DNA of 64,000 nt from Bimuria novae-zelandiae CBS 107.79 (taxonomy: Eukaryota > Ascomycota > Dothideomycetes > Pleosporales > Didymosphaeriaceae), in assembly GCA_010015655.1 (NCBI GenBank), contig ML976678.1, positions 492,595 through 556,594 of the forward strand. The letters run 5' to 3'. A model generated the notes under the pieces. It was not told the DNA's origin, made no database searches, and saw only the letters and a list, made by a program, of their open reading frames with translations. A program made the position numbers and the translations under genes. Positions 25,346 through 64,000 of the stretch are shown here, in pieces; the stretch's first letter is position 1, and every line of letters begins with the position of its first letter.

Positions 25346-25557
25346 CCACCCCATTGTGTAAGATCGCGATATGGCGTTCTAGGCTCTTGCATGGGAATCT
25401 GCTTGGATACCGGTATGGGTACGGGTATGAGGTATATAGCATGCACGCACAATCTACGCCACGATTTTCGCACTTCGAAGCTGCTAAAAGTGCTCAAGTT
25501 TTCGGTGCGAATCAAAGACGTTCGCGGGGTCACTCACGATGATGGGCGGCATCAGAA

Positions 25558-25699
25558 GGAGCTTTTCATCATTGATCCCGTCTAGGAATAGCTCCGCCCG
25601 CATGGTATTTATACCGCCTTCTTTCCTCCTTTGGTGCCTTACACGCACTACGGAATTGGTTCTACTTGAACTCTCTTGTACCTTTCCATAGACTAAAAT
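25558..25699 (+). promoter_or_regulatory. Promoter-like unit 0 (degenerate)
   Basis: CCGTCTAGG at 25578-25586, the palindromic TATA element GGTATTTATACC at 25604-25615, CCTTACACGCAC about 34 nt later, and GACTAAAA at 25691. The CTCACTAAAA position is not conserved, so this is the weakest left-hand unit. Confidence 0.45.
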
Positions 25700-25781
25700 G
25701 TCACTATCTTCAGACCGATGCTTTGCGGGCTGTGGTGCAAAAACATTGGGTAATGGCGTCATGAGCGCCGCTGTGGTTTTC

Positions 25782-25783
<2 letters not shown>

Positions 25784-25815
<32 letters not shown>
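25784..25815 (+). repeat. Uninterrupted run of 32 A
   Basis: 32 A residues lie between unit 0 and unit A. It could be the A-tail of an old retroposed sequence or a simple repeat; no target duplication is obvious. Homopolymer length in an assembly is uncertain. Confidence 0.8.
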
Positions 25816-25816
<1 letters not shown>

Positions 25817-25910
25817 CCTCTCGTAGAACCATGTGGGAGGAAGCGCGCGGTCTCCTCATCCAAGGACAGGAATTCCACGATCTGTACGCTGGCTATGTTG
25901 TCGATGTAGA

Positions 25911-26041
25911 GCGATGGTGATGCTCATCATTGTCTCTCCTATCTAGGCCTAGCTTACTTGCGAGTAGTATAAATATCACGTCCTTTTCGCAGTTTCTGGC
26001 TTCTTCACAGAACTGCCTCGGGTGGATGAAGCACTAAAAAA
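25911..26041 (+). promoter_or_regulatory. Promoter-like unit A
   Basis: Dyad GATGGTGATGCTCATCATTG at 25913-25932, CTAGGCCTAG at 25943-25952, TATAAATA at 25968-25975, TTCTTCACAG at 26001, CACTAAAAAA from 26032. Downstream to about 26320 are six head-to-tail modules of about 45-55 nt, each with an ATGGG-like and a GTGGT(C/T)TAAAA-like motif; the clearest are 26153-26285. Confidence 0.7.
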
Positions 26042-26378
26042 GAAAAGTTGGTCGACTTCATGGGCTTCGGCCTGTGTGTCTAAAAAATCGACGGTAGATA
26101 CTATGATGGGTGGAAGGAGGAGGTGCTCTTGGTGTAAAAGCCACGGACCGCTTTTCATGGGGAGTGGTGCTGTGGTCTAAAAAGACGACCTTGCCGCCGC
26201 ATGGGGAGGATTTCTGTGGTTTAAAAAGGTTAAGACTTCCCACGCACGGAGAGTGGCATCTGTGGTTCTAAAAAGGTGGGGACCTTCCTTTTATGGAGAC
26301 CGGTTCCTGTGGTGGAGAATCCTGAAGCTACACATAAACTTCTCATGCTGAGTACGCCGGCTGTTTTGTTCTCTGGTG

Positions 26379-26519
26379 TGATGGTGATGTCCATCGCCGC
26401 CGTCTTCCTCCACCCTTCTGTTCTTGGTCTAGCGTCGAGGGTGAGGGCATAAGTACACGCTATTTTCATAGTTTCGGTTTCTTCACGCAACTTGTGCGGG
26501 CTGGGGTGGCTCACTAAAG
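26379..26519 (+). promoter_or_regulatory. Promoter-like unit B
   Basis: Dyad GGTGATGTCCATCGCC at 26383-26398, GGTCTAGC at 26426-26433, the TATA-like CATAAGTA at 26448-26455, TTCTTCACGCAAC at 26479, CTCACTAAAG at 26510. The distance from the initiator-like motif to CTCACTAAA is 31 nt. Confidence 0.65.
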
Positions 26520-26679
26520 TCAAACAAGAGACATTAGTATGGACTAATGTGCATCGGGATCGGTATCATGATCTCCGTTCTTTGGCCTAAAAGCTATGGC
26601 AAACCCTTGCATGGGTAGTGTGTGCGGAGGGCAAGTCTAGTCGGTCTTTGCATGGGCAGGGAGACATCGATATGCGCAG

Positions 26680-26821
26680 TGATGGTGAAGCTCATCACCA
26701 TCTTAACCGTCTCCTTCCGATTCACGGTCTAGCTTTTTTTCGAAAAGCATAAATACTACGCTATTTTCCACGGTTGGGATTTCTTCACAGCACTGCCTCC
26801 GAGCTAAACTAACTCACTAAA
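26680..26821 (+). promoter_or_regulatory. Promoter-like unit C
   Basis: The best dyad, GATGGTGA...TCACCATC, spans 26680-26701 (8-bp stem, 6-nt loop). GGTCTAGC at 26725-26732, CATAAATA at 26748-26755, TTCTTCACAGC at 26779, CTCACTAAAA at 26812-26821. Confidence 0.7.
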
Positions 26822-26973
26822 AACAACCAGAAAATATTTTAATGGGAGTGAAAACCCTTGGACTCATACGGTATGGATCTTGGTCTATGGACTAAAATTA
26901 TCCAATTTCCCGTCCGTTGGGGAGTCTCCTGGTGCGTTGCGATTTTACGTCTTCCTACGTTGCTCGCTGTGCA

Positions 26974-27123
26974 GCGATGGTGCAGCGCATCATCGCTCTA
27001 AACCGAATACTTGTAAGATATCTTTCTCGGTCTAGGCTTCTTCCAAGATTCATAAATACACGCTCGTTTTCTACGGATTAGATTTCTCTACACCAATTCT
27101 GCGAGCTGTTTAGCTTACTAAAA
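26974..27123 (+). promoter_or_regulatory. Promoter-like unit D
   Basis: Dyad GCGATGGTGC...GCATCATCGC at 26974-26996, different bases from unit C but again self-complementary. GGTCTAG at 27029-27035, CATAAATA at 27051-27058, TTCTCTACACCAA at 27084, CTTACTAAAA at 27114-27123. Confidence 0.7.
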
Positions 27124-27304
27124 ATATACAGTCGAACGTATCATGCGCTAAAAGCTCTGTTTTAAATATTACATGGACTTTTGCTCTGTGGACTAAAACG
27201 AATGCAAATATGGACATGGAAGTGTCTGGACGGTCCAAAATTGAAGAAAGGAACATGCATGTTGAAGGACGCGTGTGTGGTACCACGCGACGTTGAGAAA
27301 CCGT

Positions 27305-27425
27305 GAGGTGAAGACCACCATCACTGTGGTTACCTAGCATGAGGAACGAATTATAAATACCCCGCTTTTTCTCCGAGAACTTAGGTTCTCTACAAGACTC
27401 TTGCGAGCTAGGCGGCTCACTAAAA
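27305..27425 (+). promoter_or_regulatory. Promoter-like unit E
   Basis: Dyad ACCAC...GTGGT at 27314-27330, ACCTAGC at 27332-27338, TATAAATA at 27352-27359, TTCTCTACAAGAC at 27386, CTCACTAAAA at 27417. Confidence 0.65.
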
Positions 27426-27613
27426 TTCTAAGTCCCACGACACCATGTGACTTAAACGCACCGATGACACGGCATATGTTCGTTGACTGGCGGAGTAAAA
27501 CCAGAATTTGAAGAAATGCATGGGAACTGTCTTGGAGGTCTTTAAGGTTAGCTGGTTTGAAGTTATGTGGACGACTTGCGGCGTATTGCGTACCGCAAAC
27601 GGTAGTGAAGAGC

Positions 27614-27760
27614 ATGATGAGCTCCACCATCATTTCTTACCAAGATTAGTGCAGGCGATGGGTCACAAATAATAATACTCTCACTGCAGCTTGGGGTTAC
27701 TCGCAGTGGCTTCGTGAGCCAGTTGGTTACGACATTCACAGACCTTGAGCTTTCATGACC
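27614..27760 (+). promoter_or_regulatory. Promoter-like unit F (degenerate)
   Basis: Dyad ATGATGAGCTCCACCATCAT at 27614-27633; AGATTAGTG in the place of the CTAG box; an AT-rich ACAAATAATAATA near 27665; and a poorly matching initiator region. It keeps its place in the roughly 300-bp spacing between units E and G, which is the main reason to count it. Confidence 0.4.
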
Positions 27761-27911
27761 CAAAACCTACGCGCAGGCAGTTTATGATCGCTGGCTGAGG
27801 GACTAAAAACTAAGTACGCCACCTGCCATGAAGGTTGCCTTGGTGGTTTAAAAAACCAGCTCTAGACATCATTGTGTGGGACGGCTCGTTCTCCGCTGTA
27901 TCCCTGAATCG

Positions 27912-28053
27912 TGGTGAGCAGCTGGGTGAGCTCCACCATTATGCCGACCGGACTTAGCGCAACATTTGAAGGCGAAGAGATATAAATACCATGTCTATTT
28001 CCCGAGTTTGTGTTCTTCACGCAACATTCCCTGGCTGGTACAGCTCACTAAAA
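27912..28053 (+). promoter_or_regulatory. Promoter-like unit G
   Basis: Dyad GGTGAGCTCCACC at 27925-27937, GGACTTAGC at 27950-27958, TATAAATACC at 27981-27990, TTCTTCACGCAAC at 28012-28024, CTCACTAAAA at 28044-28053. Confidence 0.7.
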
Positions 28054-28152
28054 GAGGACAGGCCGGCCCTTATGGGAAATGCCCTAGTGGTTTGAAAATG
28101 AAAAGCTGGAGATTCTACGTGGGAGGCTTCGTGGGATAAAGCAGTGGACAGT

Positions 28153-28285
28153 ATGGTGAAGCTCATCATCATTGCTTACCTGACCTAAGCTAAACAGCTG
28201 AAGGAAGTACAAATACCACCTCTATCTCCCAAGTCTTAGTTCTTCACCCAACAGTCCTTAGGCGGGTGGGCTTTCTCAAATAACT
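28153..28285 (+). promoter_or_regulatory. Promoter-like unit H
   Basis: Dyad ATGGTGAAGCTCATCATCAT at 28153-28172, TGACCTAAGC as the CTAG-type box, TACAAATACC near 28208, TTCTTCACCCAAC at 28239. The +30 motif is weak (CTTTCTCAAATAA). Confidence 0.55.
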
Positions 28286-28473
28286 TAGTGGCCAAACGTA
28301 TGGGCTAAAATCCGTGCCTGGACTTAATTATGGTCTTCCGACTGTGGGAAACTAAGTGCATCTGTCTTATGGGTTGGGAGATTCTCGTGTTGTCTTTTCA
28401 GTCTCTAAAGACGGTCCGGATTACGTTGCGATGCTCGCACTTAACTATCTAGCCGCGGTGGTAGTGGATAAAA

Positions 28474-28578
28474 GATGACGATGAATATCATCGCTCCCAG
28501 GGAGACTCTGGCGTAAGGTAGAGTAGGTATATAAACTCCCGAGCTCTTGTTCTTCTCCGCTGCACAATTATCTTCGGG
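28474..28578 (+). promoter_or_regulatory. Promoter-like unit I, split by the hAT insertion
   Basis: Dyad GATGACGATGAATATCATCG at 28474-28493, TATATAAA at 28528-28535, TTCTTCTCCGCTGCAC near 28550. The unit is broken 29 nt later by the hAT element; its CTCACTAAAA motif is found on the other side at 62552-62561. Removing the transposon and one target copy places CTCACTAAAA about 39 nt after the initiator-like motif. Confidence 0.65.
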
Positions 28579-28879
28579 CAGTGATGTACACGGATAGAAT
28601 TTCCATGGATTTTATCCGTATCCGTTCCGTTCCATAACTCCATGGAACTCCATGGAGAAGTGACACTAACCAACTATTATATAGCACCTACCTACTCAAG
28701 TTAGTTATAACGTACGTGTAATGACCTAACATTGCGGGGTTGTTAGAGGTTTTAGTATTAATATCCCTAATTTAACCTTACCCATCTTAAGCTATAAATA
28801 TTTACTCCTTTTAATAATAGCTATATAATATATTTAAAATTAGACTTTAGCATGCCTTTAAGAGCACCTTAAATAACTT

Positions 28880-29121
28880 TATTGGCTTTAAACCTGCGCA
28901 ACACTGCTACGGCTTTCACCGCCATGTAGTTTGCCTGCGGTTTGTTGCGCAGTTTGCCTGTAGTTTATTACGCTAGTCCTGATTAGGCTAGCAAGGGACA
29001 AACCACGCTCGATAAATACTTCTTATAATAGCCCACTACAATAGATCTGTAATTAAGAATTAAATCAACACCACATCGTTGCAACGAAGTCTTGATCTAA
29101 CAGCCTATTACCGTATTAACA
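28880..29121 (+). repeat. Copia-1 5' LTR
   Basis: 242 bp, same length as the 3' LTR. It starts TATTGGC where the 3' copy has TGTTGGC, and ends TTAACA against TCAACA. The differences are mostly transitions. Confidence 0.92.
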
Positions 29122-32100
29122 CTAATCAGTGGTTGCTACACCACAGATTGGCAAGATATACTGTGTACAGGGAATCTCAGCGCACGTTTCAGGCTGAGTA
29201 TTCTGGCGATAGAAGCGGTTAGCGCATGCCTCCTCCCCTACCAAGGCCCAGGATACAGCATCGCTAGTGCGAAGTACAGGTACGACAAGCTCACTGCTAT
29301 CCTGTATCAGGATCAGCGGCGCCTTGTATTTAAAGGATCTCTCCGCCTGGATTGTCCCTACTAAGGCTTAGTTCGGAAGGAGATTTGCGTTAACCACGCT
29401 AACTCTTGTTAAATTACACTAATTACAGGCCTATATCTAAAACGCTATTATAAAGTACACCTAAACAAAGGATCGCTCGTGGTACCTAGATAAGATAATC
29501 TATAAGGACTAGTACGCTAACTAAGATTTTAATATTGCTAACGCCACCGTTAATATAGATAAACTTAACACTATAGTTATTAACTAGATAATACAGGTGG
29601 AAGAAGATAACATATTCGACCTATTTTTACTACTTAAGTTTAAGGAGTATTTTAAGAATTTCACCCGCGATCTCTTTAATAGCATTAACAAGCGCATCTA
29701 AAAAGCACTTAAAGAGCTCCTCCGCTAGCAAGGTATCTATATTAAGTAAGGTAATAGTAACAATCTCCCTAACTAATTCGTAGAACTCTTTATATTAACT
29801 ATCGTCCTAAAATGGCCCGCCGAGCATCTTAAGCTTATAAGGCTTTACGAAGGCTTTAAGTGCCACTAGATCGTAGATAATAAAGAACAATAGTGGCAAT
29901 AGCGAGCTCCGCTAGGTGGAGGATTATTATTATTATTATAACCTGGATTTACGCCTGTGTAGAATAACTCTTATTTACTTACTAACCTCGCCAAGTTATA
30001 CACGCCGGAGCAGAAGTATTTAGGTAATAAATACGATATCCTTAAGACAAAGATTAAGGTGTTTAATAACCTCTACACTAAGATTAGGATTAATAAGGAT
30101 AAGTAGTATAAAATAGCACTCTCTGTTATGCTTACTAGCCAAGCGCTTTAGTATTACTATGATCACATTACTCCCTAGGCGCTTACGCTTACTTACAATA
30201 CAATGCTTAACAAGCTACGCACGTACTTTAACACCACACAAGCTTACTAGATATACCTCTAGGAGTGGCATAGCACTACGCTTAAGAGCGTTATAACTAC
30301 TAACCCTAAGAAAGACCCTATAGAGTGTCTTAAAATAGTTATTAGTAAGATAAACATGCTCTATCAGGCACTATCACAGGACTAGGGTAAGAGCTATAAT
30401 TAGCATTTGCTTACGCAATAGCTCCTTAGCGCATATCGTGGTATTAAAGTAACTACTATAGCTTGCTTAAAACTAGCGACTATATTTAAAGGTGTCGCTG
30501 CAGATCTCCGCAACGCAGTTAGCATGTGGTTAAGCTATTATCCTAATAGCTAGTTTCTATCACGAGATGCAGATAAGCAGTATTACACTAATCGCCACTA
30601 TATCTATAATAATTAATAAGCTACAGGATTATTAGATAATAACTACCATAGTTACTACTATTAAGGTTAAGGCGGATCGCGCGGCAATTAATTTAATAAT
30701 AATAATTATTAGTTAAACTACTTAGGTAATTGCCGTAATAAGACATGCTTTATCTATAAGTAGCCTAAGTGCTAATTAACTTAACACTTAAAGAAGGAGC
30801 GCATGGAGCATCGCTAACGCTTTAACTAATACGCTTAAGATAATCCTAATACCCTAAGCTATAAAGTGTTTCTCGCTGGCTATAAAGGTATAGAGCTTAA
30901 AGACAGCGACGGCAGCGACAATAATGCTAGTAATAATAATATTAAAGTATATTTTACTGACTAAGTCTACTTAACTATATTCTGTGGCAAGGTTAACGGC
31001 GACGCCATCGTCTCTAGCCTTAATAACGCTACCGCACTTTATGTAATTATAGGCGATAATCCTTATATCTCTAGCAAAGTAAATAAAGATGCTTAACTTT
31101 TCTTATTTAATTCACGCTATGGCGTAGATATCTTTTAAGGTATTATGCCTAATACTAGTGTAGCTAGTATCTTAACTACTGGCAAGACATAAGTGAAGGC
31201 GCTATAGCTTATCTAACTATTTATAGTTATTAATAAGTCTACTGCAGGACGTTGTTAAATCTAATTTAGAGATAATCTAGAGTGTTTCTCCCTTAGCGAC
31301 GTTAATGTCAGCACGCTATTTAGTATAATTACCTTTATAGTAATGCTAACTAACACACTATTTCTGCTCTGCTTAAATGATATGGATTATTATAGTATTT
31401 TCTTTAATAACATCGACAATATGCTCGTTTAAGGTGGCAAAGAATTCCTAATTATCTGTAAATAGGGACATCCATGGCTCTTGCTTAATAAACAAGAGAC
31501 TATTATTTACTACTTAACTAAGACTAAGCTGCGCTAGCTTTACTAACGCTTTGGCTATCTTACTGCTAGACAACTGCACAAGATCCTCAGTAAAGCAGGC
31601 TATAAAGATATTAATAAGGACATTATTAATCGCATTAATAAGTACTGTTACTAGTGTCAAATCTATAGCAAAGCACCTGGCCGTTTCCGCTTTACTATTC
31701 GCGATAACATGGACTTTAACTTATACGTTATTGTTAATGTGATGTATATTAATTAGAAACCAGTACTCCACGCAGTTAATAAAGCCACAGCTTTTTAAGC
31801 TACTTAATTTATACTAAATATTTAGGCAAACACTACTTAGGATCTCCTTCGCGCTATGTGGATTAACATGTACGTTAGTCCTCCCGACGTTATTAAGACA
31901 AATGCTGGCAAGAACTTTATTACTAATAAGTTTATTAATAACGCCACGTTACTTGTAATCGAGGTTAAGGAAGTCTTAGTAGAGGTATATTATTTAATTA
32001 ATAAGGTTAAGCGCTATTATGCTCCTATCCGCCGTGCTTATAGGGTAATCTCTGCAGACGTTAGACGCACAACCACTCCTGAATATATCTTACAGATGGC

Positions 32101-34455
32101 TATTAAGGCTATTAATAACACCGCAGGTCCTAACAGACTTGTCCTAACTCTTCTTGTCTTTGGAGCATATCCTCGCTTATTAAAGAAATCACTACTATCG
32201 CTATCTATTACCGCCCGCGGCGCTGCAGTGCGTAAAGCAATGGCTAAAGTGCGTAAGATTAAGGTAAAGCGCTAAGTTAATAAGGCTCTTATAACTCGTA
32301 ATAGTCCTAACGCAACTAATGTTTTACTATTACCTATTTTAAGTAGTGTTAAGGTCTAGTAAGAGAACTATAGATAGTCTAGCCCGCATTAGATAATCGC
32401 CCTCTACGTTAATAAGTAATTTATGGTTATTGAAATTAATAACAAACAAGTCACCTTCTGCATTACCGTAGTGCGCCCGTATTATGCAGACGATATAACT
32501 ATTATTACCCCTCTCGTAGAGGACAAGAATAACAGTGGCTCTAATAATAATTTCACTCCTATTATAGAGGAGCCCGCGCCTAAGCGTAAGCGCGATAGGC
32601 TAAAAGGCTTAAGGAATAAGCTAAAACCTAATAAAGTTATAATTATTATAGTTAACCTTAATTAACGTGAGCGTAATAATCTTGTCCTGGCTAAGAAGCT
32701 ACGAGTAGTTAGTAAGATTATAACACTAAGGTAACTATTTAAAGCATTTATAAAGGTAGAGATTAACGCCCTTATAACATAAGGTGTCTTTTACTTTAAG
32801 AAGTATAGTCCTTACTATTATAATAAGATCCGCATCTTTAAGTCACGTATTATTAATAAAGTTAAGGGTAAGACTACTAATCGCCCGTACGAGAAGTCTT
32901 GTCTTATTATCTAAAGATACGCTAATAACGATAAGAAGCTTGTCCTAACATAGTCTCTCACTATCTAGCGTGCAAGCCAGCGTGTGATTATCGCTCTAGC
33001 ACTATCACTGTTAAAGCTAGGCATGTACCTCTGGCTCCGTAACATCACTTAGGCCTATACGCAATCGGATAATCCACTCTAGCGTACTATTATAGCTAAC
33101 ATACTAGCCTAGCTTAAGGAAAGTTATCCAACAAACATAGTTATAGTTATTATTAAGCCGCTATACGGCATTGCTAAAGCAGGTGCCTATTAGTAGTTAA
33201 CGTATAATAAACACCACACTAAGACTCTCTATATAGTAACATCCACTTATAATCTATACCTACTTATTAGTAAGGCTAGTAGCAAGTGCTTTAGCATTAT
33301 TAGCATATAAACTAACGACACGCTTAGTCTGTCTAACAAAGCTTTTGCAGACCTTAAGGACTAAGAGCTACGTTTTAAGGCTAAGCCTAAGTAGTTTCTC
33401 TTACTAGACGCGCAAATTAACTTTAATAGCTATATTATTAAGCTTAATAATAATAATCGCGCTATTACTCTGCGCTAGAAGAAGCAAGACAAGAAGCTAG
33501 AAATAACTAATAATAAGTAATTATATATTTAATAGCGCGCTTGAGGTACTTACATTACAACAATTTATTAACCTGAGGCGAGCTTCGACCTCGCCGCCGC
33601 AGCCTAAGCAAGTGAGCCCACAAAAGAAGAAATTACTAGATTAAATAAGCGTATTATCTAGCAAAAGGAGAATATTACTCGCGGCCTTAACTTTATCCTA
33701 CTAGACTTAAGTAACTTAAAGCTATACGCCTTTGTTAACGCATTATTTATTAATAATAAGGATATGTTATTATAAATAGGCTTCGTAATCACGCTTAGTA
33801 ATAAGACTAAAGATAGCGATTATAACTTTAAGTTTACTAGTAATATTATTTACTAGTTATCTATTAAGTGTAAGCGCGTTACTTGTAGCGTCCTTATATC
33901 TAAGATCTACGCGATAGCATATAGAGTTAATATTATAATTATAATTAGCGGTACAATTAACATAATTATATAGTAACTTAACCTCCTTAATGTCTCTATC
34001 GTCGTGTGCATTGACTCACGCTCCTTATATAATTACCTTATTAAGCTTAGCACTACTAAGGAAAAGCGCCTTATAATTAACATTATAGCTCTACGTAAGG
34101 CCTATAAGCGCAATAATCTCATGGACATCCGCTAGATTAATAGACGTGACAATCCAGCAAACTTAATAACTAAGGCTAGCTCCAACTTAGCTATAGAGCA
34201 TCTTATTAACTATAACTAGCTTAAGCTTCGCGTGCAAGACTAGGTTAATCGTGCTAAAGTTAACACCCTAGAGTATAATTACAATAGCAAGAAGTAGTAA
34301 GTCTGTAAAAGAAGCAGTAAGATAGGCACTAAGAGGACGCGCACTAGCGCTAGTCCGGTTAAAAAACTAGTAACTATTACAGATTGTGTTTTATTGCAGA
34401 TTTAAGCGTTCTGGGCTAAACTGGCCACATGTAGCATAAAAGAAAAGATAGCCAG

Positions 34456-34697
34456 TGTTGGCTTCAAACCTACGCAACACTGCTATAGCTTTCACCACTA
34501 TATAGTTTGCCTATAGTTTATTACGTAGTTTGCCTGTGGTTTATTACGCTAGTCCTAATTAGGCTAGCAGGGGACAAACCACGCTCGATAAATACTTCTT
34601 ACAACAGCCCACCACAATAGATCTGTAATTAAGAATTAAATCAACACCACATCGTTGCAACGAAGTCTTGATCCAACAGCCTATTGCCGTATCAACA
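34456..34697 (+). repeat. Copia-1 3' LTR
   Basis: 242 bp beginning TGTTGGC and ending CAACA, followed by the target copy AACTT. Confidence 0.93.
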
Positions 34698-35744
34698 AAC
34701 TTAATATAAAATTTTAGTATTATAAATTAACCTAGAATATATTATCTATCGCTTATTTAACTCTAGTTTTAAAAATAATAAATTATAACTTACTAATTTT
34801 AACTTTAAGTAAGCTCTAGCGCCTACTAAGTAATAAACTATAAATAATAATAGTATTAAGGTTATTAGTAATTTAGTTAGTATCTTTAACGCGCTATTTA
34901 ACTACTTCTAAGTTAAATAAAGTAATATTTTTTATAGGTATATAGCCTTTATTAAATATTCCTAAAGTCGTGCATAGTTCTAGAAGTTTAGGGTGCCTCT
35001 TATAGTTTTCTAGTAAGATAAAGAAGGTCGTTTAAGTTATAGGAAGTATTATTTATGCTATACATATTACCTAGAAGGTTCGCAATATAGGGTAATATTT
35101 AATATTATAAGTAGAACCTCTAGCGTACGATTACACTTTAAAATAGTTTATCTAATAATATATAACGCAGAGACTATAATACCTCTAATTACTTAGCTTT
35201 TTACGTCTAACGCGCTTAAACTTCTTAATACTTTAAATTCTAAATAGTAATTAGTATATAACTAGATTATAAAAGTATTTAACGTAACTATACTACGTAA
35301 AGATATTCTTTAATAAGTTATACTTAATAATATACTATATAAGAAAGTTAATAGTTTTAACTTTTAGTATATTTTTTTATAAGTAATTTTATTAATTAAA
35401 GATAAAGTTATCCTGAGGCAAAACTTAATTTATAGATAAATATTAAAAAAGCATATTTTATATAAATAAAAGTTAAAAGAAACTATTAATAATAGCTTAA
35501 GACGCGTATATATTTTATTTAATATTTAAATTTTAAGGTATAGGCGTGCATTAAATAGTGTTATTAGTTATTAGGTTAATTATTAGGGATATTATTATAC
35601 TATTTTACTATTAATAAAAGAAATAGCACATATTTATAGTAGTAAGAATCTATATAAGAATGTTTTTAACACTATTAATAAGTATAACCTCTATAACTAA
35701 ATTAAATATTTCGTGACTAATAACGCTTCTATAAATAACACTAT
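34698..35744 (+). pseudogene. Outer hAT transposase, first remnant
   Basis: Plus-strand frame with many TAA/TAG codons. It has hAT-transposase landmarks: FRVPLIVF, a strand region before the first acidic residue, and near 35700 YFVTNNASINNT, the usual 'G(Y/F)xTDNASNN' block. It is interrupted by Copia-2 at 35744 and continues at 51744. Coding capacity is destroyed. Confidence 0.7.
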
Positions 35745-52673: not shown

Positions 52674-55600
52674 GTTATGAGCCCGGCCTAATCCGCACTC
52701 ATATACATACATTGACTCCCTACCTACCTACCTGTCGATCGAACCTACTCTATAGAGCGATCTCGCCATGTTAAAGGCTATCTCGTCGATCATCCTTCAA
52801 GGGCCACACAACTGGGAACTATGGATCTATACTGTTAAAAGGCTCGCAGAGGCTGGAGACGTATGGGGATATATCAATCCAGACCTGCTACATCCGTCGA
52901 CACTAAACAAGCCTCTACAACCTACACAGATCCATGCTGCCAACGACGACGGATCACTAGTAACAGAACCTACCCCTAAAGCTCGAGCGCAGTATAATTA
53001 AGACATAAGTCTTTACTATAGAGAGCTTAAAGAATACAGGCGAACTAAAGATAAAATTAAGTAGATTAAAGCGTATATAGCTAACATAATTGCGCAGGAC
53101 CTAGTCTATTAAATTAAGGACTAAGAGTCCCTCCACGATCAGCTTAAGACTCTACAGGAGCTCTACAGTCCCTTAATAGCTGATCGAGAATATTAGGTCC
53201 AGAAAGCATACAACACCGCCAAAGTTCTGCACGCTCGCAGAGAGAACCTCGAAGATTGGTGTAGCACATTCCTTGCTGCCTATAATAGGGCCAAACAACT
53301 CCAGCTACTAGAGACGCATGGCTACAGACCACACAAGGATCTCATACAAGCCATTAAACAGATTGATCCTAGATACGCTGCTACTATCGCGATTACTGTA
53401 TTTAACGTAAAAGCAAGCTCCCATAACGACTCTATGCAGCCAACATTGCCTGATTTACTAGCTAGTTACCTACGCTACTATCGCACAACCACAACGAAAT
53501 TAACCGCCTAGAGTGGAGCATTTGCAGCTACATTAAATCAAGAAAAGTCTCTGTACAAATAAAATAGTAAAAAGAGATCTCGCCAGGACAAGCCATTAAA
53601 GCTATTAAAACCATGCCTCTGTGGAGACCTACACTACTGGGGACAGTGTCCGTACATCGACACCTCACTACGCAAAGGAGGATTTGTTAAAGACCCTAAA
53701 AAAGCCAAGAAAATAGTAGAGTTTAAAGCTAAGGATAAGAACGGCATATTAAACAAGATTCGGGAGAAGAATTAACGCTATAAGAAGCAGAGGACCTACA
53801 AGAGCTATATAGCAGAACCTAATTCGATAGAAATTAACGCAGGCGATGCACCTATAAGCAACCTTCTAAATAAGGTATATGCTATCTACTTATTAGTATT
53901 TAATAATTAGCTAGCGCACCGAAACTTCCTGCTTCTCTACTTATAGACACTGGACCCCGCTACTAATATCCATATCTGCAATAATCCGACCGAGTTTTAA
54001 TGGAAAGCTCTTGCATCACCTGACGATATCGTACTTGCAGGCGGCACTGAGATGACTATCCAGGCATGGGGAGAAGTCGAGATACCTTTATTAACACCAT
54101 AAGGATAAAAGAAAACAAAGCTTAAGAGTGTAGCCTTAATCCCTAGCTTTTTTACAAGCCTAGTCTCTCTAGCCCGGCTATTATCGTCAAACGTCTATTT
54201 CGACTCTGGCAGAAATGCACTATATCGATCTAAGTTATTAGGCTTACGAGTAGAAGACATCGCCACCCTTACTAGACTAGGTGGGCACTAGCTAGTAGTC
54301 TATCGAACTGAACCTCTATCTACTTAATCCGCTTAGGCTTAGGCTTTTGCGACCTATTAACGTTGGCTATAATACTCTGCTCTACCGCCTAGACTAAGAT
54401 TACTTAGCAAGTCTTAGCTCCATATACTGATAGGACATCTAAGCAGTAACGCTATCGATTAACTACAGAATCACGTGATAGGCATACAGCCATCTACTAG
54501 ATCTGCTCCTTAAACAATCGACTGCGAAGAATGCCTATAAAGCAAAGCACATTAAATCATCTCACGGCGAAATGGCCATGAGATTAGAGCCACAAGAGCC
54601 TTTGAAACTATTGCTATTGATCTTATTAAGCTTGATGCAAGAGCCTACAATGGCGATTGATACGTCTTTCATAGGTTTAATCTATTCTCGAAATTCCATT
54701 TCGTCTATATAATACCTAGACGGGATAAGCTTATGCTCCTGTCTATTATTAGACGACTGGATCAAACAATTAAACGAGAATTTAACACAACTGTCACCTT
54801 TCTTATCGCTGACGACGAGCGAGGATATGGCCTGACAGACGACTCTGCTAGAGACTACTATTAGAGAGAAGGTATCAAGCTACTGATTAGAGCTCCACAC
54901 ACTAAGGAGTAAAACGGATTAGTAGAGCGCTCTGGCAGAAGTCTTATTAAGAGAAGTCGTTTAATGAAGATTACTTTAAACCTACCTCTAACACTTAGCT
55001 CTAAAATCTACTCTATAGTAGCATACCTGCTTAATCGCACACCCACGCGATTACTAGGCTGGAAAACACTATTTAAAATTACCTATGGCAAGAAACTGTT
55101 AATTGCTCACCTACGCGTCTATAGCTGCCAAGCATACGCACTACGCAAGCAGATACCACGCATAGATAAGCTTAGTCCTTAAGTACTAGTAGGATATCTA
55201 GTTGGCTATGACTTGTTAAATATCTACCAGATCTAGATGCCTAAGGCGAGAAGTCGAGCATATAGAGGCAAAGTAATTCGTGTAAGAGACGTTACCTTTA
55301 GAGAAGACCTCTTTTATTAACTACACGATAAAACAGATCCTCTCCTATAAGGCTCTAAGCTAGAGCAATTCGCTTACGAGTATTAACTACCTTTAATACG
55401 CAGCCAAGATAGCTCTATAGAAGATTTATTAGAAGACAAGCTCACGTTAGATCTAGACTAGTCTAGCTAGACTACTGCTTCTACAGAACAAAGCCAATCA
55501 ACGCAAAAAGAAATAACAATCCTACGTTAAACTAAAAGTTATAATCTGTAGCTTCTAACACTAAGTTAAACAGAGACTATTAAGGTTTATAGCAGCTCAT

Positions 55601-57959
55601 AGGGCTTGCCTTATGACTACTCACCGCGCTTACTATTAGCTACGCCAGCCAGCCTACCTGTAATACCTATATCCTTAAGAAAGCGCAAGCGTTAAACATC
55701 AGACTTTATTTTACAAATAGACTTAAACTAAGCAGAGAATTGAGAACTAATTAATAGCAACCTTCGTCGGTCTTATATACTACCTAAAGGGTTAATAAGA
55801 TCTAGAAAGCTATCTTAGAAGAGTAGCAGCTTCTTTATTAATACATACTAGTTAGCATACGTAGCAGCCTTAGCTACAGCATCAAAAACACGATTTCACT
55901 ACACCGAGCTACCTCCTGAGCCGCGTCTCTACAGAGATGTAATAAGGATGCCATCTCCACACAAGGAAGGCTTTCTCCAGGCGATGCAACAAGAGATCAA
56001 CAACGTGAAACGAAAAGGCACGTACGAGAGGATTACTTAGCAAGAGTTAAATTTATAAAACTAAGAAGTTCTCCTGTTAATATAGGTCTTTAAGTTTAAG
56101 CTTAATAATTAAGGATACCTTACGAAATACAAAGCGCGCATCTGTGTACGAGGCGATCTATAGACAACTACTAAAGATACTTATGTAGCTACTTTAGTAG
56201 TTTGAATATTCTAAGCTCTAGTTGCTATAGCGGCCTACTTTAACATAGAGATCCGTTAGTATGATGCTATTAACGCATTTATAAACGCTTAGCTTGTAAC
56301 ACTAGTCTATTATTATTTACTAGAAGGATTCTCTGATCCTAATTATTTATGGAAACTACGTCGAGCTCTATACGGCCTAAAGACCTCGCCACTACTTTGG
56401 TATTAAGAGCTTACCAAGACGCTCTTTAAACTAGGACTACACGAAGTTAAAGATGCTCCTTATCTATAGAAGAATGACAAGCTTCTAGTCTTCTTCTATG
56501 TAGACGATATTGTTGTACTCTGCCTACCAGCCCACAAAGCTACACTACATGAATTCGAACAGAAGCTCCTGTATTAATATAAGATTCGATTTCTAGGAGA
56601 GCTTTAAACGTTCTATAGCATTCAAACGCATAGAGACCGTAAGAATGGCTCTATCTAGCTATCACAAGTTTTATACATCGAGAAGCTCGCACAGAAGTTT
56701 CCTCTATTAAAGCTATATACGAAGTTGCTAGCTATACTACTGCCTCTAGAAGAGTTATTACCGTTAGAGGATTAAGCAAATGACTTCACTAAGCACAGAT
56801 ATGCCTAGCTTGTAGGATCTATAGGATATGCAGCTAGAGCTACCTGACCTAATGTCTTAAAAGCTTACTTAAAACTAGCTAAGTTTCTCACGAATCTATC
56901 TTTACGTTATCTTAACGTAGCATACTAGACAATCGCCTACCTGCTAGAAACTAAAGATTAAGCGCTCTACTATACCGCTTCTATCTTAAACGAATTAGTC
57001 TATATAGCCAACCAACCTTAACCTAAGTTCTTTAGAGCAACAGATATATTATACGCTAATAATAAAATTACACGCAAGAGCTCACAAGGCTATATCTTCT
57101 TTCTATTTAGCGGACCTGTAGACTAGAAAGCAACACTCTAACGCTGTGTTATAAAGTTAACTACAAAAGTAGAGCTAGTCGCCGCATCGTCTGTAGGCAC
57201 TGAACTGATCTGGTGGTGGAGAGTCTTTAAACAAATCGGCTTTAATCTAGATTATAAACGTCTTTTATACTGTGATAATTAGCAAACTATCCGACTTCTT
57301 ACCTCTACTACGCCTCGTCTTAAGACTACTGTACGGCACGTCGATATCTATTATCACTGGCTTCGATAAGAAGCTCAATCTAACAATATCAACCTTTCAT
57401 ACATCTAAACAACCTGTTAACTAGCTAATAGCCTCACCAAGCTACTGCCTAGACAGAAACATAAAAACTAGGTTTCTCTTTTTCATTTTCAACCTTTTCC
57501 TTCAAGCAAATGAGCTTCCCTACTGTATAGTACTCTTCCTGGTTTTTCCCATGTGGTTTTTACAGGTTTAACGAGGCTATACATTTACCCAGTTCTATCC
57601 TGTTCCCCTTATACTATACTCAACTTTATACTATATTTCACATTATACACAGAGCAAACATGCTCGCATCATGTATTAAGCTCCACCTGCAAGACTCATC
57701 AACCTCAGCACAGAACGCGAAGCAATCAGGATCTCAGTACTAGCTCTAGGAGACGTCCTACTACTAGGGACGCCTGTAGTATAGAGCGAGATCCACCTAC
57801 ACTGCGACGGCGGACGGCTACCCACCTGGGACTGCACCAATACTCAGACTAGCACAAAAAGCTAGCTTCTCGACCCCAAAATGCAGCTGCCCCACAAAGG
57901 CAGAGGGGGAACTATAGCCAAAATCAGCTTCAAACATGCGTTCGAACCTGAAGGGGGTG

Positions 57960-58108
57960 TGTAAGCAGCCTAGGGCTATGTCACATGACGACACTAGTCT
58001 CATGAGTCAGCTCGATCACTATAAACGAGCCTCTGATCACTCCATGTACACACACACACAGAACACACACAATACACTACCTTTATACATACCACCCACC
58101 TGCTTACA
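57960..58108 (+). repeat. Copia-3 3' LTR
   Basis: 149 bp, starting TGTAAGCAGCC and ending CTGCTTACA, followed by the target copy TATAA. The high similarity of the two LTRs marks this as one of the youngest insertions in the nest. Confidence 0.93.
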
Positions 58109-59080
58109 TATAACGTATCCGGCAAGCGAGCTGCGCAGGCAAGCGAGCTGCGTACCCTACTAACTTTTCGTAACGTATTACTTTTTAACTATAATAGCTT
58201 AACTAACTACTTCTTAATTGCCCTATAATAAAGCTAATATTCTCCTTACTATCTTAGCTATTAACTAAAATTAAATTTAAAGTAGAAGACGCGCTACTAC
58301 TATTTATAAAGTTTTTAAAAGTATACTATATAGTTAATGCGCTAAAATTACTACACAACGTAATTATAAGCCTAGCTTAAAAAAGCTTACTAAGCTAGAA
58401 GAGGAGGTAATTATTAGGCATATACTTAACCTAGATTCGCGAGGATTTCCGCCCACGCTAGGTGCTGTACGAGATATGGCAGATAAGCTACTCGCTAAGC
58501 GAGGCGCTGGTAAAGTTGGCGAAAAGTGGCCGCGCAACTTTGTTAAGCGAACAAACTAACTTACTATATAATTTAATTAGCTATATAATTAATAAAGAGC
58601 TCTATATAAGGATCTAAAAGCTATTAGGGTATAGTTTAACCTTATAGCGCGTACTAAAGCTACCTATAGTATCTATAATTAGGATACCTATAACTTTAAT
58701 AAGACTAGCTTTATAATAGGCAAGATATTAGCGCAGCTTGTTATTATAGGCTTAGAGAAATAAGGTAGGCTAAAGGCTATCTAGCTAGGCAATCGTGGGT
58801 GGACTATAGTAATATATAGAATTAACGCTACTGGCTAGGCGATCCCGCCCTTTATTATCTTCCCTAGCTAGTATCACCTCTCTGCCTAGTACCAGGACGA
58901 TAATATACCACGCGACTAGGTTTTCGCTGTTAGTAATAATAGCTAGACTACTAATAAGCTTAGAGTAGAGTGGCTAAAGCACTTTATTAAGTATATAGTA
59001 AAGCGTAGGGTAGGTGCGCGCTAGCTACTTATACTTAATAGCTATAAGAGCTATAACTTGCTTAAATTTTAAAAGCTCTA

Positions 59081-61320
59081 ACGTGGTTCACCACCGAGCG
59101 GGCCAACCCCACCAAGCGGGCCACTTTTTAAAAGTCAGTCTATTGCGAAGCGCCTCCTACAACACCACTATAATTTACTATAATTTATAGAACATAGAAA
59201 TACTATTTAGACTTATCGCTATTAGATGCATCTATAATTTCTACTGCGTAGGTGCGAGCGTTGTGGTCAGCTTCGCCGTAACGTCCGCAGCGCCTCTGCC
59301 CACGCACCCTCTTTGCAGACTCTTTACCCTCCTTTTGCCTACTACTATCCTTTTTAGCCATTAAATCGACTACCTCTCTTACTATAAGTGTCTTAGCTGC
59401 CTAAATATACTTCCTCTTTTAATTTTTTACCTCTATTACTATCTCTACTACCTTACGAAGCCTTGCTATTTCTTATTATATTAACACTATTTTATGCCCT
59501 ATTAATACAACACCTTTATTAAGCTGCTTAATAGCTCTAAGAAGCGGAGAAACTAGTAAATCCCTATACTTCTATACACGCTTATAAACTAGCGTTAACT
59601 AAGCCTCTATCTCGCGGAGGTTACTTAGTATTTTTAATTCTTATAGGGTATCCTCTACGTTAGGTGGAGTTGGCGTACAAAGAACTATATTAAGTCTTAA
59701 TAACACCGCCTCTAGGTTATGTAGGACTAATCTAGCGCCTTTAAAGCCTGCGCAAATGTTTGCCTTTATTATTACTTTTTTAAAAGCTACTTTAAAGGCT
59801 AGTAGAAAGGTCTCCTTTTTAATCTACTTAGTGCTGTACCATGCTAAGCTACTAATTTCATTGCTATACGCCCGCTTTAAAGGCGAAAAATAACCTACAT
59901 TAAGTGGCTGCAAGAGGTGTAATAAGTGTAGAGGCATATAGAGAATAATAATCTTCTATTCCTCACAGTATTTATGGAATTCGTGTGAGCAGTGGCTCTC
60001 GTGATTATTTATAATTAGTAGCTAGTATGTACCTAAACTATACCCCTTAGTATAGGTATTAAAGTGCCTTAGCCAGGCAAGACTAAGCTTGTTTAACGTC
60101 TAGCTATTAGGACTAACTTTAATAACCTAGTCTCGGGGTAGATTGTGGAACCAGGACGTAATTAGAACCTTACTAAGGAAGATAAAAAAGGGTAGTAGAG
60201 CCTAGCCTTTAGCGCTAACACCCTAGATATTAGTAACTTACCTATAATTATTAAGTTAAATCTTCTTTAGGTTGCTTTGCTTCTTAGAGCCTGTAAAGAC
60301 TATCTAACCCTGTATTACCCCTATTATAAAGCCTATCTTGTCGAAGTTGTACGTGTCGTCATCAGCGATACTATACTTAGCCTTAGTATTAATAACTAGC
60401 TTGAACTAGGGCGTTATAATACGTAGATCTTCGTTTAGGGCTTATTAATAATTATATAGATAGCTCCTTTAAAGCTTAATTTCTAGCGTACGCGTCTTAA
60501 GCCTGTCTACCTAGTACTTACTAATAGGCTATCTACCGCGCTTAGCAAGTAGATTATTAGCTATATCTTAGACTATATCCCTTATTGCACCTATTCCTCG
60601 CTGGTTAAGCTTAAGTATACGTTAGACTAGAGCCTCCTCCTCTAGCTTAGTTAGCTTCTTTAAGTTAGGCTTGCGATCGCGTTGAGAGAGGGCTCCTTAG
60701 CGTTATTATTATACTATTATTTAAGGCACGCTAAAAGCTATAATAACGCGTCTTTTACTCTTATCGCAATCTTTAATTATAGCTTAGATAGCAAGCTATA
60801 GTACACTTTTAGTATAAGGTTGTTGCGCGTTATGTTGTGATAGCATTATAGTATAAGCTAGAGGTGGGCTGTGTATCGGCGCAGGTCACTCAAAGGATCG
60901 ATGTTGGCGTATCTCCTAGCAGAGGCATGTGGGAGTGCGTGTATAAGAATGTAGCCTCGAATGAATTAAGTGCCTATAGGCCTGGTACGAAAGGATACGG
61001 AAAAGGTACTGAACTACAAAGGCCCCAAGCTCCTCTAAATACACCTCTTCCCAGATGGCTAGCTAGCACATAACTGCCATAGGTTGACCGTCGGTCTGAT
61101 GGATCCGAAATAGGTCCGAATCGGATTCGTAGTTCCCCATCGGTCTGATAGATCCGAAATTGGTCCGATACGGATGAGTGTCGGTTTTCGGATGATCTCG
61201 AATCCTGTCTTGACTAGCCAAGGGTTCTCGTGTCGACGAGCGATTGTTCCTGTTACAGGCTGCATTTAGCAAAGTTGGCCCGCTCGGTGGGGTTGGCCCG
61301 CTCGGTGGTGAACCACGTTT
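59081..61320 (-). mobile_element. Pogo-B DNA transposon nested in pogo-A, opposite strand
   Basis: The ends are inverted repeats beginning ACGTGGTTCACCACCGAGCG, each with a second GAGCGGGCC or AAGCGGGCC copy just inside (59081-59127 and about 61272-61318). TA lies on each side (59079-59080 and 61321-61322), although the right end has two extra T. The transposase reads on the minus strand: NFDKIGFIIGVIQG near 60340, YQLLIINNHESHCSHEFHKY near 60010-59960, PLNVGYFSPLKRAYSNEISS near 59900, and a C-terminal CCHC-like RRCGRYGEADHNARTY near 59260. The catalytic part is broken by stops. The 5' leader (60860-61270) is almost free of RIP. Confidence 0.88.
61092..61175 (+). repeat. Two 35-bp direct repeats in the pogo-B leader
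   Basis: CGGTCTGATGGATCCGAAAT begins at 61092 and CGGTCTGATAGATCCGAAAT at 61141, 49 bp apart, each followed by a GGTCCGA(A/T).CGGAT stretch. Possibly subterminal transposase-binding sites or a small passenger repeat. Confidence 0.6.
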
Positions 61321-62927
61321 TAAGGAGAATAATATTATTACTTTTTATATACTACTATATTTATTATACTTTTTATAGCTACTTAATATTAACTACTTCT
61401 TGCCGTTAAAGCGCGCGTATAGCTACTAAATTAAGAGCCTAATACGCGACTATATTAGCTATATTATAAAATTAAAGTTCCTACTAGCCTTCTACGTAGC
61501 TTATAAGTAATTAATTATAAAGGAGAATATCTGCGTAAGCTTTTAAGGCGCCAGCCTAGTCCTATATAACCTAAAGGTAGTAATATTAAAGCTTAATATT
61601 AAGCTTTATACGCTAACGCCGCCTCTACTAGACGTTACTTTTTAAGAAGCTAAAACACTAAGTAACGCCCGCGAGCTAAAGGCTTAATTAATATTAATTT
61701 ATAATAGGATTTAAAGATATAAAAGCTTATTACTTACTTCTATTATTATAGCGCTTAATTAGCTTAAAAAAGGTGCTAAAGTAATAGCTTATAAAAGTAT
61801 ACTTATGCGCAATTAGATCGCGAGGCTTAAAAAAGCTAATAAGGCTACTATAATACGTAAAAAGAAAAAAAAAAGTGGATATAGTAGCAAGGCACCTTAA
61901 TAAAGGCAAAAATAAAAGAAATTATTACTTAAAAGGACACAAAGTAGTAAGTAGAGGGTAAAATATATTAAAGTAAGGCGTAATTAGGTGCTAATTAGTA
62001 GACTTTAACGCGCTATAGCTACTATAGAAAGACTAAGTATAACGCGCGAACGTATATAAAGCGTACTATAAATACTACTTAATCTAAAATAGTAATTATA
62101 TACTATTATCTTATTATGTTATTAAGGTAGGTTACTATAAAAGTGTAAAAAGTTGGTGGAGTGTGCAGCTCGCTTGCCGGACACGTTATTATAAATTTAA
62201 GTAAAAGTAAGGAGGATAGTAGTGTAATGTTTTAAAAAAAGTAAAAGGGTAAAACTAAGGAAAATTAGTTTAATTATTTTATATTTTTTTTTCTTTTTTA
62301 GTTATAATAAGTAGGTTTAATAGTGGTTCCTTCTCCTCTTCCCTAACATGTGACGTGGAACATCCACCTATTTAGTGTCTAATATGCGCGATGGAATTAA
62401 GCTCTTGACCCCGCACGACGCTATCTTATAATTGTACTAGTACTATAGCTGCATGCCAAGAGAATCTCTGGAGATCTCCATGGAGAAATGGAACGGAGTA
62501 AATGGATATCCATATCTGTCCATGTACATCACTGTCTTCGGGCTATACTAGCTCACTAAAAGTCCGATAACACCGAACTATGGTCTAAAAGACTGAAAAG
62601 CGGACTGTCATGGGGGCTGCTCCTGTGGTCAAAGATGCATCAGCAGACACTGTCATGGGCGGGATTATTGTTCGAAGACAAGGCCCTAAGGTGCGACGGG
62701 GAAGTCGCGGTCGGTTCTGCTCTTCCCACGTCTCTGCATGGGCAAAGTTCACCAAAACATGTGTCTAAAATGTCGAATGTCTTTGAACCGGGTCTCAAAC
62801 TTCGTCGGCGAAATTGGGATGGGATTCGCTGCGCTTAATCAACTTGCACCTGATAAACGGATGGAGGCGCAACTCAGCCCTAGGTTGCAGTTCACGTCGC
62901 TTTTGGAACGAGACGAGGTGTACTAAG

Positions 62928-63041
62928 TGTTACTAGGATATTTTATTTCTGCATATGGCGGTTGAGGAGTGTATAAATACCACGTTCTTTACTAGACCTT
63001 TCATCCTCTTTCACGCAACAACCTTAGCTTGGGCTCATTAA
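62928..63041 (+). promoter_or_regulatory. Promoter-like unit J
   Basis: TACTAGG at 62931, GTATAAATACC at 62971-62981, CTTTCACGCAAC at 63008 about 36 nt later, GGCTCATTAAA at 63032. The dyad is not clear. Confidence 0.6.
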
Positions 63042-63330
63042 ATTTGCAATATGGATGGGCTATAGACTTAAACAGAGCTCCAAGAGACTAATAGCCCTCA
63101 GCCAGTCTTCTTACAAATCGAGTGAAGGCTGTAGAATAGAGAGCACGGCTATGTTCTAAAACGTAGTCACCACGTCTTATGGAAAAGACAAGCCGCTGTG
63201 CAACATACCCCGAAGCTCAAGCTCTAGAATATACGTGCCATGATTGGAGAGAAGAAGTGACCAGCAACATGTTATGCACAGCGTCACCGGCGTATGATAG
63301 ACGTGTCGTTCCATTACAGGCGCAGCACTG

Positions 63331-63492
63331 AGCTGATCGGCTCCCAGACGCGCTTGTTCGTCCCGCGTATCACGTACCTAGCCCCATGCCTCTTCACGTA
63401 TTGCGCAGTGCGAGGATGGCTATAAACACCGCAATTTTCCCTCCAAACCGTCATCTTCACACACTTTCTTCGAGCCGCTGCGCTCACTAAAA
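63331..63492 (+). promoter_or_regulatory. Promoter-like unit K
   Basis: Dyad-like GAGCTGATCGGCTC near 63331, ACCTAGCC at 63376, TATAAACACC at 63421, ATCTTCACACACTTTC at 63452, GCTCACTAAAA at 63482-63492. Spacing TATA to initiator-like motif is about 31-33 nt. Confidence 0.65.
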
Positions 63493-63693
63493 TTATTCGA
63501 TCACGAACTTATGGACCCAATTACACCAGTACTATCCCGATGTGTTCTCGGCCGGGGCTAAAAGCTTCAACACATCCTCTCCATGGACGGCAGAGCGGCT
63601 TCCAAATACTTCCTCTCATCAGTTACATGTCGAGGAGACTTTCTGGTTAACCACGAGTTTGAATATGTGTGTGAGATGCGGAAGCCGTAGAGA

Positions 63694-63846
63694 TGGACAT
63701 TACCGCGCGTCCGAGAATCTATCATCGGTCTAATATCGAGTAATGTACCGTGAGAAGCTTCCGCGGTGTATAAAGGTCGGTTAAATTTTCAATAACTTAC
63801 CTTCTTCACACGCTGTTTTTCGCACAAAACCCGACGAGGCTAAAGT
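63694..63846 (+). promoter_or_regulatory. Promoter-like unit L
   Basis: CGGTCTAAT at 63726, TATAAAGG at 63769-63776, CTTCTTCACACGC at 63801, GAGGCTAAAG at 63837. The dyad position holds GGAC...GTCC (63694-63711). Confidence 0.55.
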
Positions 63847-64000
63847 GGAAGAAGTATGAGATGTGGTGGTCGGCGTTGTGACGCGGTCTTGGACAGATGT
63901 CTCTGTTGAGCCACCAAAACCGCCCAGAAGGACGTACATGATGCATGCGCCATTCTTTAGATATATCATTCGCGCTTGATACCTTTTGACATTGATGGTA

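Follow-up and report, generated by a model that had tools for sequence, protein, structure and literature searches.

The DNA analysed here, a stretch of 64,000 nucleotides (nt) from the dothideomycete Bimuria novae-zelandiae CBS 107.79 (GenBank assembly GCA_010015655.1, contig ML976678.1, positions 492,595 to 556,594, forward strand; hereafter the window), carries a tandem array of promoter-like units in two same-strand segments, separated by a 34-kb nest of transposons (Table 1). Behind the promoter-like boxes lie short cassettes, overlooked in the first-pass annotation of this DNA, which are the main and most informative feature of the array. Aligned on their boxes, they read GGWCTAAAA, 17-19 free bases and YATGK. 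Nineteen of the 21 CTAAAA hexamers of the array have an ATG starting 17-20 nt past the sixth base; for the CTAAAA found elsewhere in the window, on either strand, the figure is 4 of 53. The pattern CTAAAA-N17..20-ATG gives 24 cassettes in the window under a rule that also admits weaker boxes. The free bases are referred to below as spacers, and the sequence between an ATG and the next box as a body.

The 13 same-strand TATA-type promoter units described previously were all confirmed, their TATA positions having been given correctly to within a few bases. The statement that neighbours are often about 300 base pairs (bp) apart also holds; in the left segment the distance varies from 227 to 482 bp, with six of the nine intervals at 299-320 bp. 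A degenerate 14th unit lies past the window end, at about the window-equivalent of 64,320-64,400. Alignment of the units with MAFFT (one alignment of 14 units and one of 12) gave a common core of TATAAATACC, about 30 nt, TTCTTCACacaAC, about 20-30 nt and GCTCACTAAAA. The motif order proposed as constant (dyad, CTAG box, TATAAATA, TTCTTCAC, GCTCACTAAAA) was recognizable in the alignment, but one or more boxes are, by eye, missing or altered in units 1, 7, 10, 11 and 13; as had been noted, the motifs are conserved and the whole units are not. The TTCTTCAC-type box follows the TATA by 28-35 nt in all but one of the 11 units measured, the exception being unit 10 (21 nt). Over the 4,640 bp of the joined array there are 22 copies of CTAAAA, six of TTCTTCAC and five of GCTCACTAAA, against top counts of 11, 4 and 3 for 6-mers, 8-mers and 10-mers, respectively, in 50 first-order shuffles, A-runs excluded. 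A run of 33 A is found in unit 1, behind its second cassette (25783-25815).

A dyad had been attributed to every unit. A rule-based search for the type GATGGTGA-AGC-TCATCATC located it in six of 13 units, where its first base is 48-77 nt ahead of the TATA, and once more at the site of the 14th unit; further dyads were recognized by eye in units 1, 2, 6 and 8, but no clear one in units 11-13. At array loci on other contigs (see below), a dyad stands behind the last cassette on C44, the rule finding none near the promoter there, and on C32 one lies ahead of the first promoter and is not preceded by any CTAAAA. Near the promoters of C16 and C91, no dyad was picked up by the rule. The dyad could be a promoter element or a 3'-end element.

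The transposon nest does split the array, as proposed earlier, and was inserted inside unit 10. The 8-bp duplication TCTTCGGG is present at 28571 and 62535, the outermost element, which we take to be hAT-like, ends in CAGTGATGTACA, and the interior of the nest is AT-rich. When the flanks are rejoined across the insertion, the unit 10 promoter is followed by CTCACTAAAA-N18-ATGG, which makes a normal unit.

Recurrence of the two-box cassette in the genome

The pattern GACTAAAA-N17..19-YATGK matched the genome 204 times, against 11 matches for the reversed control over the same three spacings; with N20..24 there were 13 matches, against 17 for the control (five spacings). A second form, GGTCTAAAA-N17..19-YATGK, gave 50 matches (control 4), six of which belong to one transposon family, and the promoter pattern ATAAATA-N18..38-TTCAC-N15..40-CTAAAA gave 22 (control 4). 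The spacing was also measured at 10 loci found by promoter boxes, where the ATG was not used and the limits of the segments were set by A-box density, although the ATAAATA pattern itself requires one CTAAAA. In the 12 segments from these loci, 95 of 129 CTAAAA have an ATG at 17-20 nt; the base rate over all hexamers is 0.088, and CTAAAA ranks first among hexamers with at least 15 occurrences. The distance from CTAAAA to ATG peaks at 18-19 nt, and both the reverse strand and the shuffled sequence are flat. Chance would account for roughly one in ten of the elements counted (off-spacing, 14; right spacing, 160).

The matches are strongly clustered. Among the 100 listed of the 204 GACTAAAA matches, 79 fall into 25 clusters of at least two within 8 kb, and there are 54 neighbour pairs within 8 kb, against 2.3 expected for a uniform distribution over an assumed span of 32 Mb. 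Pooling of all lists, i.e., these 100 of the 204, 44 of the 50 GGTCTAAAA matches (the six of one transposon family being dropped) and 13 of the 22 ATAAATA-pattern matches (nine unconvincing ones being dropped), produced 75 clusters, 35 of which hold two or more matches. A general gene-end signal was rejected, since the matches cluster in arrays. Because the strict GACTAAAA form fits only 12 of the 168 elements of the promoter-found arrays, the genome total may reach about 2,700, a rough figure derived from those 12 elements.

Parts of 20 loci were read, and promoter-like boxes are present at 19; ten of these loci had been found via such boxes. Among the ten found by their cassettes, boxes occur on the cassette strand at nine (17 sites, with one reverse-strand match) by a rule whose last box is itself strand-biased; a different rule gave five. 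In the promoter-found loci, YYAAAA favours the promoter strand, most weakly on C16; matches of the R1 model at other loci depend on the patterns by which those loci were found. Two layouts were seen. On C23, C17 and C74, promoters are numerous and each has few cassettes; on C44 and C50, a single recognized promoter precedes about 3-5 kb of cassettes. When the window array (25541-28578) was used as a DNA query against the genome, it recovered only itself, on which ground a solo long terminal repeat (LTR) or a dispersed high-identity transposon was rejected; a match to a known satellite or solo-LTR family, named in the first-pass annotation as a finding that would overturn it, did not appear in the searches run, which used no repeat library.

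Judged from sequence, the locus in the window belongs to a group of dozens that have a series of cassettes behind promoter-like boxes on the same strand. As sequence patterns, the two-box ruler and its spread across the genome can be regarded as firm, and the sequence case for reading the upstream boxes as putative promoters is strong. The earlier interpretation as a promoter array stands with respect to the repeated same-strand promoter-like units, but not in its local scope, since boxes and cassettes recur throughout the genome. No description of such arrays was found among the titles and abstract openings listed, those of papers naming Bimuria novae-zelandiae included.

Spacers and bodies

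Spacers are 16-21 nt long, mostly 17-20 nt, and in an alignment of elements selected by an ATG at 16-21 nt they carry less than about 0.1 bit of information at nearly every position. All-against-all edit distances among 372 spacers are near those of shuffled sequences, nearly all spacers being unrelated; at an edit distance of 6 or less there are 83 pairs (shuffled, 72). The two closest pairs each come from within one array, and one of them (edit distance 4) is formed by adjacent cassettes at 1672 and 1715 of L059, possibly a young duplication.

The bodies, of 5 to over 40 nt, behave differently. Among bodies of similar length, identity is 70% or more in 16% of 219 pairs from the same locus, as compared to 1.8% of 2,183 pairs sampled between loci and to 1.3% of 3,690 within-locus pairs of spacers. 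In 10 body pairs that are at least 80% identical (mean 0.86), the spacers before them have an identity of 0.54 and those after them of 0.58, the random null being 0.52; in the promoter-found loci, 19 pairs with a flank identity of at least 0.75 have a mean spacer identity of 0.345 (background, 0.30). This is clearest on two contigs: the body TCGCTGGTGGA occurs twice, identically, on C67, and on C78 (L057, 5668 and 5869) an identical body has spacers on either side that are unlike or weakly alike. Spacer change is not always total, because a few neighbouring spacers retain a partial likeness.

On the same strand, the spacers are A/C-rich and the neighbouring bodies G/T-rich, an opposite skew which argues against a plain strand-wide mutation bias. 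TAG and TAA are scarce in spacers (observed/expected, 0.43 and 0.54; 22 array segments), and the bodies also lack TAG. A possible derivation of the spacers from mRNA was considered on the basis of their trinucleotide profile, which correlates with coding sense sequence at 0.77, coding antisense at 0.63 and intergenic sequence at 0.56 in a small set; with larger training sets, spacers score -0.0011 per nt, between coding (+0.0072) and intergenic sequence (-0.0121).

Possible products of the arrays and rival explanations

Our tentative preference, to which we would give somewhat less than an even chance, is that the arrays are transcribed by RNA polymerase II into precursors of many short variable RNAs, and would so form a genome-encoded guide repertoire. 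The polymerase would start near TTCTTCAC and make a long non-coding precursor carrying the cassettes; a processing or loading machine would read the two boxes as a ruler, and each cassette would give or display one short variable RNA of roughly 18-22 nt. Jointly, the loci would encode guide-like RNAs in numbers from some hundreds up to perhaps a few thousand, and their spacers may be renewed or hypermutated separately from the repeats. A more specific version, which we consider rather doubtful, is a fungal repertoire resembling clustered regularly interspaced short palindromic repeats (CRISPR) or PIWI-interacting RNAs (piRNAs), in which dozens of promoter-led arrays would encode some hundreds to thousands of distinct 18-19 nt guides between two ruler boxes, with independently renewed spacers, used by an enlarged Argonaute family for defence or regulation. 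If the cassettes yield guides, a eukaryote would here have its guide RNAs encoded in arrays; such a repertoire could be sought in any genome by a simple sequence rule, and whether eukaryotes renew guide sequences could be tested directly. Even with inert spacers, a two-box site with 17-19 nt between the boxes throughout the genome, behind a common promoter type, would be an unexplained selected system.

A candidate user of cassette RNAs is an enlarged Argonaute family. The genome has 19 Piwi-domain matches at about 12 loci (contigs C9, C31, C42, C94, C98, C99 and C124), six of the matches being on C31. In the loci represented by L065 and L066, the two gene copies scanned, open exons encode Piwi and ArgoL1 domains, and L067 has an open exon at the position of the Piwi match; stops interrupt some of the other matches and may reflect introns or decay. 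From behind CTAAAA to the end of the ATG (N18-19 plus ATG) there are 21-22 nt, the length that Argonaute-bound RNAs usually have in fungi. For comparison, a published range for fungi is one to nine Argonautes, with four in Zymoseptoria tritici (PMC8303167).

The arrays partly resemble the CRISPR arrays of bacteria and archaea: behind a leader or putative promoter come repeats on one strand, the spacers between them are nearly all unique and vary little in length, and where repeats are alike, they are so within an array and differ between arrays. Unlike CRISPR arrays, they are eukaryotic, their repeats vary from 5 to over 40 nt and are alike in some arrays only, only the two short boxes are common to all arrays, the spacers are mostly 17-20 nt, and the two spacers searched against the whole genome had no target match. 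In animal piRNA clusters, a long single-strand non-coding precursor gives many short RNAs, and a precursor of this kind is proposed for the fungal arrays; to our knowledge, the animal clusters have no conserved flanking boxes or ruler. Polycistronic clusters of small nucleolar RNAs (snoRNAs) have one promoter and many short elements, with two boxes around a variable guide, but the fungal boxes are not C/D (RUGAUGA/CUGA) or H/ACA boxes, nearly all spacers differ, and no snoRNA match to Rfam was obtained for the window or for ten array-locus sequences. At the 21U-RNA (type 1 piRNA) loci of Caenorhabditis elegans, as the consulted parts of the sources describe them, free short sequences likewise lie clustered at a set distance from a motif (PMC3597512, PMC6436959). 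Those units are autonomous, with an upstream CTGTTTCA motif, whereas the fungal cassette has a box at either end and each series begins with promoter-like boxes; the fixed distance between motif and variable sequence is found here between two DNA boxes, but a CTGTTTCA-type motif with a 5' U is not, the box being CTAAAA with no T bias at the spacer start. A repeat-spacer-like layout has also been claimed in human DNA ("hCRISPR"), where, according to the part of the report consulted, there are mostly two repeats and one spacer, and 65% overlap known repeat families (PMC8993844); on that description, the fungal arrays differ in their defined two-box cassette, exact ruler and shared promoter type.

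Several observations weigh against a guide repertoire. Both spacers searched genome-wide lacked a second match at up to two mismatches. When 364 spacers were compared with 257 kb of fetched DNA, a single exact match was found elsewhere, to a transposon end; there was one match with one mismatch (shuffled, 0-1) and there were 19 with two (shuffled, 7-14). These counts were judged to show no excess and thus give no support for targets. Spacer starts have no T bias, and in predicted folds the spacers are no less paired than other sequence. Similar spacers are in slight excess (526 pairs at edit distance 7; shuffled, 355), the evidence from shared bodies consists of the ten close pairs, from five loci, with following spacers at 0.58 where chance gives 0.52, and L059, one of the ten cassette-found loci, has no promoter boxes by the rule. 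The Argonaute expansion is a correlation only, and the same facts fit an array of binding sites with inert spacers.

The exact match deserves a comment of its own: the "spacer", on C32, proved to be a transposon end inserted in the array and hence a false element. This end, TAACGTGTCCGTGCGCGTG at a TA site, is common to window positions 5490-5506 and to L012 near 2093-2109 (minus strand), where it truncates the C32 array and imitates a cassette. With a 2.9-kb array as DNA query, nothing was matched but an inserted dispersed repeat of about 100 bp, in a search to which 18-mers are invisible. The repeat lies inside the C50 array (L014, about 2148-2250, minus strand) and has 20 further sites at 74-82% identity.

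An array of binding sites is a serious contender, and quite possible: a factor or complex would bind CTAAAA and YATG at a set distance, on DNA or on the transcript, the 18 nt in between would be inert and conserved in length only, and the locus would serve as a decoy, a scaffold or a chromosomal structural array. The fixed spacing around a spacer that carries no information, the failure to find spacer targets (in the two genome-wide searches and for the 364 spacers in 257 kb) and a C-to-A spacing of about 24-25 bp, near two and a bit turns of DNA, all fit such a bipartite site. It explains the ruler, but not the shared bodies next to unlike spacers (10 close pairs at five loci); if bodies and spacers were both filler, equal decay would be expected, unlike what is observed. 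Nor does it account for the opposite base skew of spacer and body, or for the position of most cassettes downstream of, and on the same strand as, promoter-like boxes, a placement that a site on DNA would not need.

It is improbable that each cassette is its own tiny transcription unit, with CTAAAA as a TATA-like or Ruby-like element and transcription starting about 24 nt further on, at the A of YATGK. YA is an initiator-like dinucleotide, which would suit such a start. However, the TTCTTCAC-type box lies 28-35 nt, and not about 24 nt, past the TATA in 10 of 11 window units, the variable part would fall upstream of the start, and cassettes stand mostly behind promoter boxes on their own strand. 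What speaks for such units is the fixed motif-to-site distance beside free sequence, which is also the logic of 21U-RNA loci in the consulted part of PMC3597512.

The tandem layout, the locus-specific bodies and the degenerate units at the array edge would also result if an old family of minisatellites or satellites were decaying without any function, which we consider very unlikely. Decay, however, would not hold boxes 17-19 nt apart around randomized sequence on many contigs, and the DNA search with the window array, run without a repeat library, found that array alone. Just as little probability attaches to serial RNA 3'-end signals, with CTAAAA as an A-rich positioning element, cleavage at YA and then a GT-rich stretch. 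Fungal A-rich elements do lie about 20 nt before poly(A) sites, and the bodies past the ATG are G/T-rich, but poly(A) signal spacing is much looser than 17-19 nt, and the matches are clustered in arrays and not distributed over gene ends. Least credible is a coding-repeat remnant, or polycistronic mini-open reading frames starting at the ATG, as the constant ATG and the TAA within CTAAAA might suggest: the base before the ATG is mostly C or T, with no A at -3 and no Kozak context, measured from the ATG, the TAA of the following CTAAAA falls 47/37/39 times in the three frames, and spacer stops have no clear frame, so that a protein-coding repeat was rejected on Kozak context, three-base spacing and framed stops.

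Known classes of structured RNA were also considered. MicroRNA-like hairpin genes were not supported by the spacer duplex and fold tests: consecutive spacers are not complementary (duplex -5.04, null -5.12 +/- 0.15; 195 pairs), and because of this, and because spacers are not less paired, the arrays are not a hairpin source. The mean fold z is weak, at -0.47 for 170 bodies and -0.24 for 352 spacers. The Rfam covariance search of the window gave no match at the gathering score (in 25400-28600 the only hit had E=0.46, with 22.8 bits against a gathering score of 60), a transfer RNA (tRNA) search of the window found none, and ten array-locus sequences gave two tRNAs only, so that a known non-coding RNA family was rejected as well. 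The two tRNA genes lie at 1823-2007 of L050, in the stretch beside the C44 array.

Flanking genes and feature coordinates

The left neighbour of the array is the gene for DNA polymerase alpha subunit B (POL12), with a long exon at 23700-25154 (PF22062 and PF04042), and further ordinary genes lie to the left of it (Table 1). On the other side, past the window, is a minus-strand gene (L009, near 3200) that presumably encodes ribosomal protein S29, judging by eye.

Table 1. Positions of array segments, promoter-like TATA boxes, dyads, cassettes and other genes within the window
Feature	Position	Strand	Remarks
Left array segment	25541-28578	+	units 1-10, unit 10 interrupted
Right array segment	62535-64000	+	end of unit 10 and units 11-13; extends about 0.4-0.5 kb beyond window
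Transposon nest (34 kb)	28579-62534	.	inside unit 10; outermost element with 8-bp target-site duplication and defined ends
Unit 1 TATA	25606-25613	+	TATTTATA
Unit 2 TATA	25968-25975	+	TTCTTCAC at +32
Unit 3 TATA	26448-26455	+	CATAAGTA
Unit 4 TATA	26748-26755	+	CATAAATA
Unit 5 TATA	27051-27058	+	CATAAATA
Unit 6 TATA	27352-27359	+	
Unit 7 TATA	27664-27671	+	CACAAATA; degenerate unit
Unit 8 TATA	27981-27988	+	
Unit 9 TATA	28208-28215	+	TACAAATA
Unit 10 TATA	28528-28535	+	TATATAAA; unit split by insertion
Unit 11 TATA	62972-62979	+	
Unit 12 TATA	63421-63428	+	
Unit 13 TATA	63769-63776	+	
Dyad before unit 4	26681-26702	+	GATGGTGA.AGCTCA.TCACCATC; rule-based
Other rule-found dyads	26378, 26973, 27614, 28153, 28479		start positions
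Cassette	25693-25720	+	CTAAAA-N19-ATG
Cassette	25738-25763	+	weak box CAAAAA
Cassette	26034-26062	+	
Cassette	26080-26108	+	
Cassette	26177-26203	+	
Cassette	26268-26295	+	
Cassette	26587-26613	+	
Cassette	26817-26844	+	
Cassette	27118-27145	+	
Cassette	27148-27175	+	
Cassette	27193-27218	+	
Cassette	27235-27261	+	CCAAAA
Cassette	27420-27447	+	
Cassette	27760-27786	+	CCAAAA
Cassette	27803-27830	+	spacer without other genome match at up to two mismatches
Cassette	28048-28074	+	
Cassette	28305-28332	+	
Cassette	62556-62582	+	of unit 10, separated from its promoter by insertion
Cassette	62585-62612	+	
Cassette	62752-62779	+	CCAAAA
Cassette	63156-63181	+	
Cassette	63487-63513	+	
Cassette	63558-63585	+	
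Cassette	63914-63940	+	CCAAAA
Isochorismatase-type gene	6736-7443		left of array
G-beta WD40 gene	9079-9939		left of array
Adenosine deaminase gene	11504-12157		left of array
Phosducin-like gene	18359-19063		left of array
CRAL-TRIO gene	22106-23068		left of array

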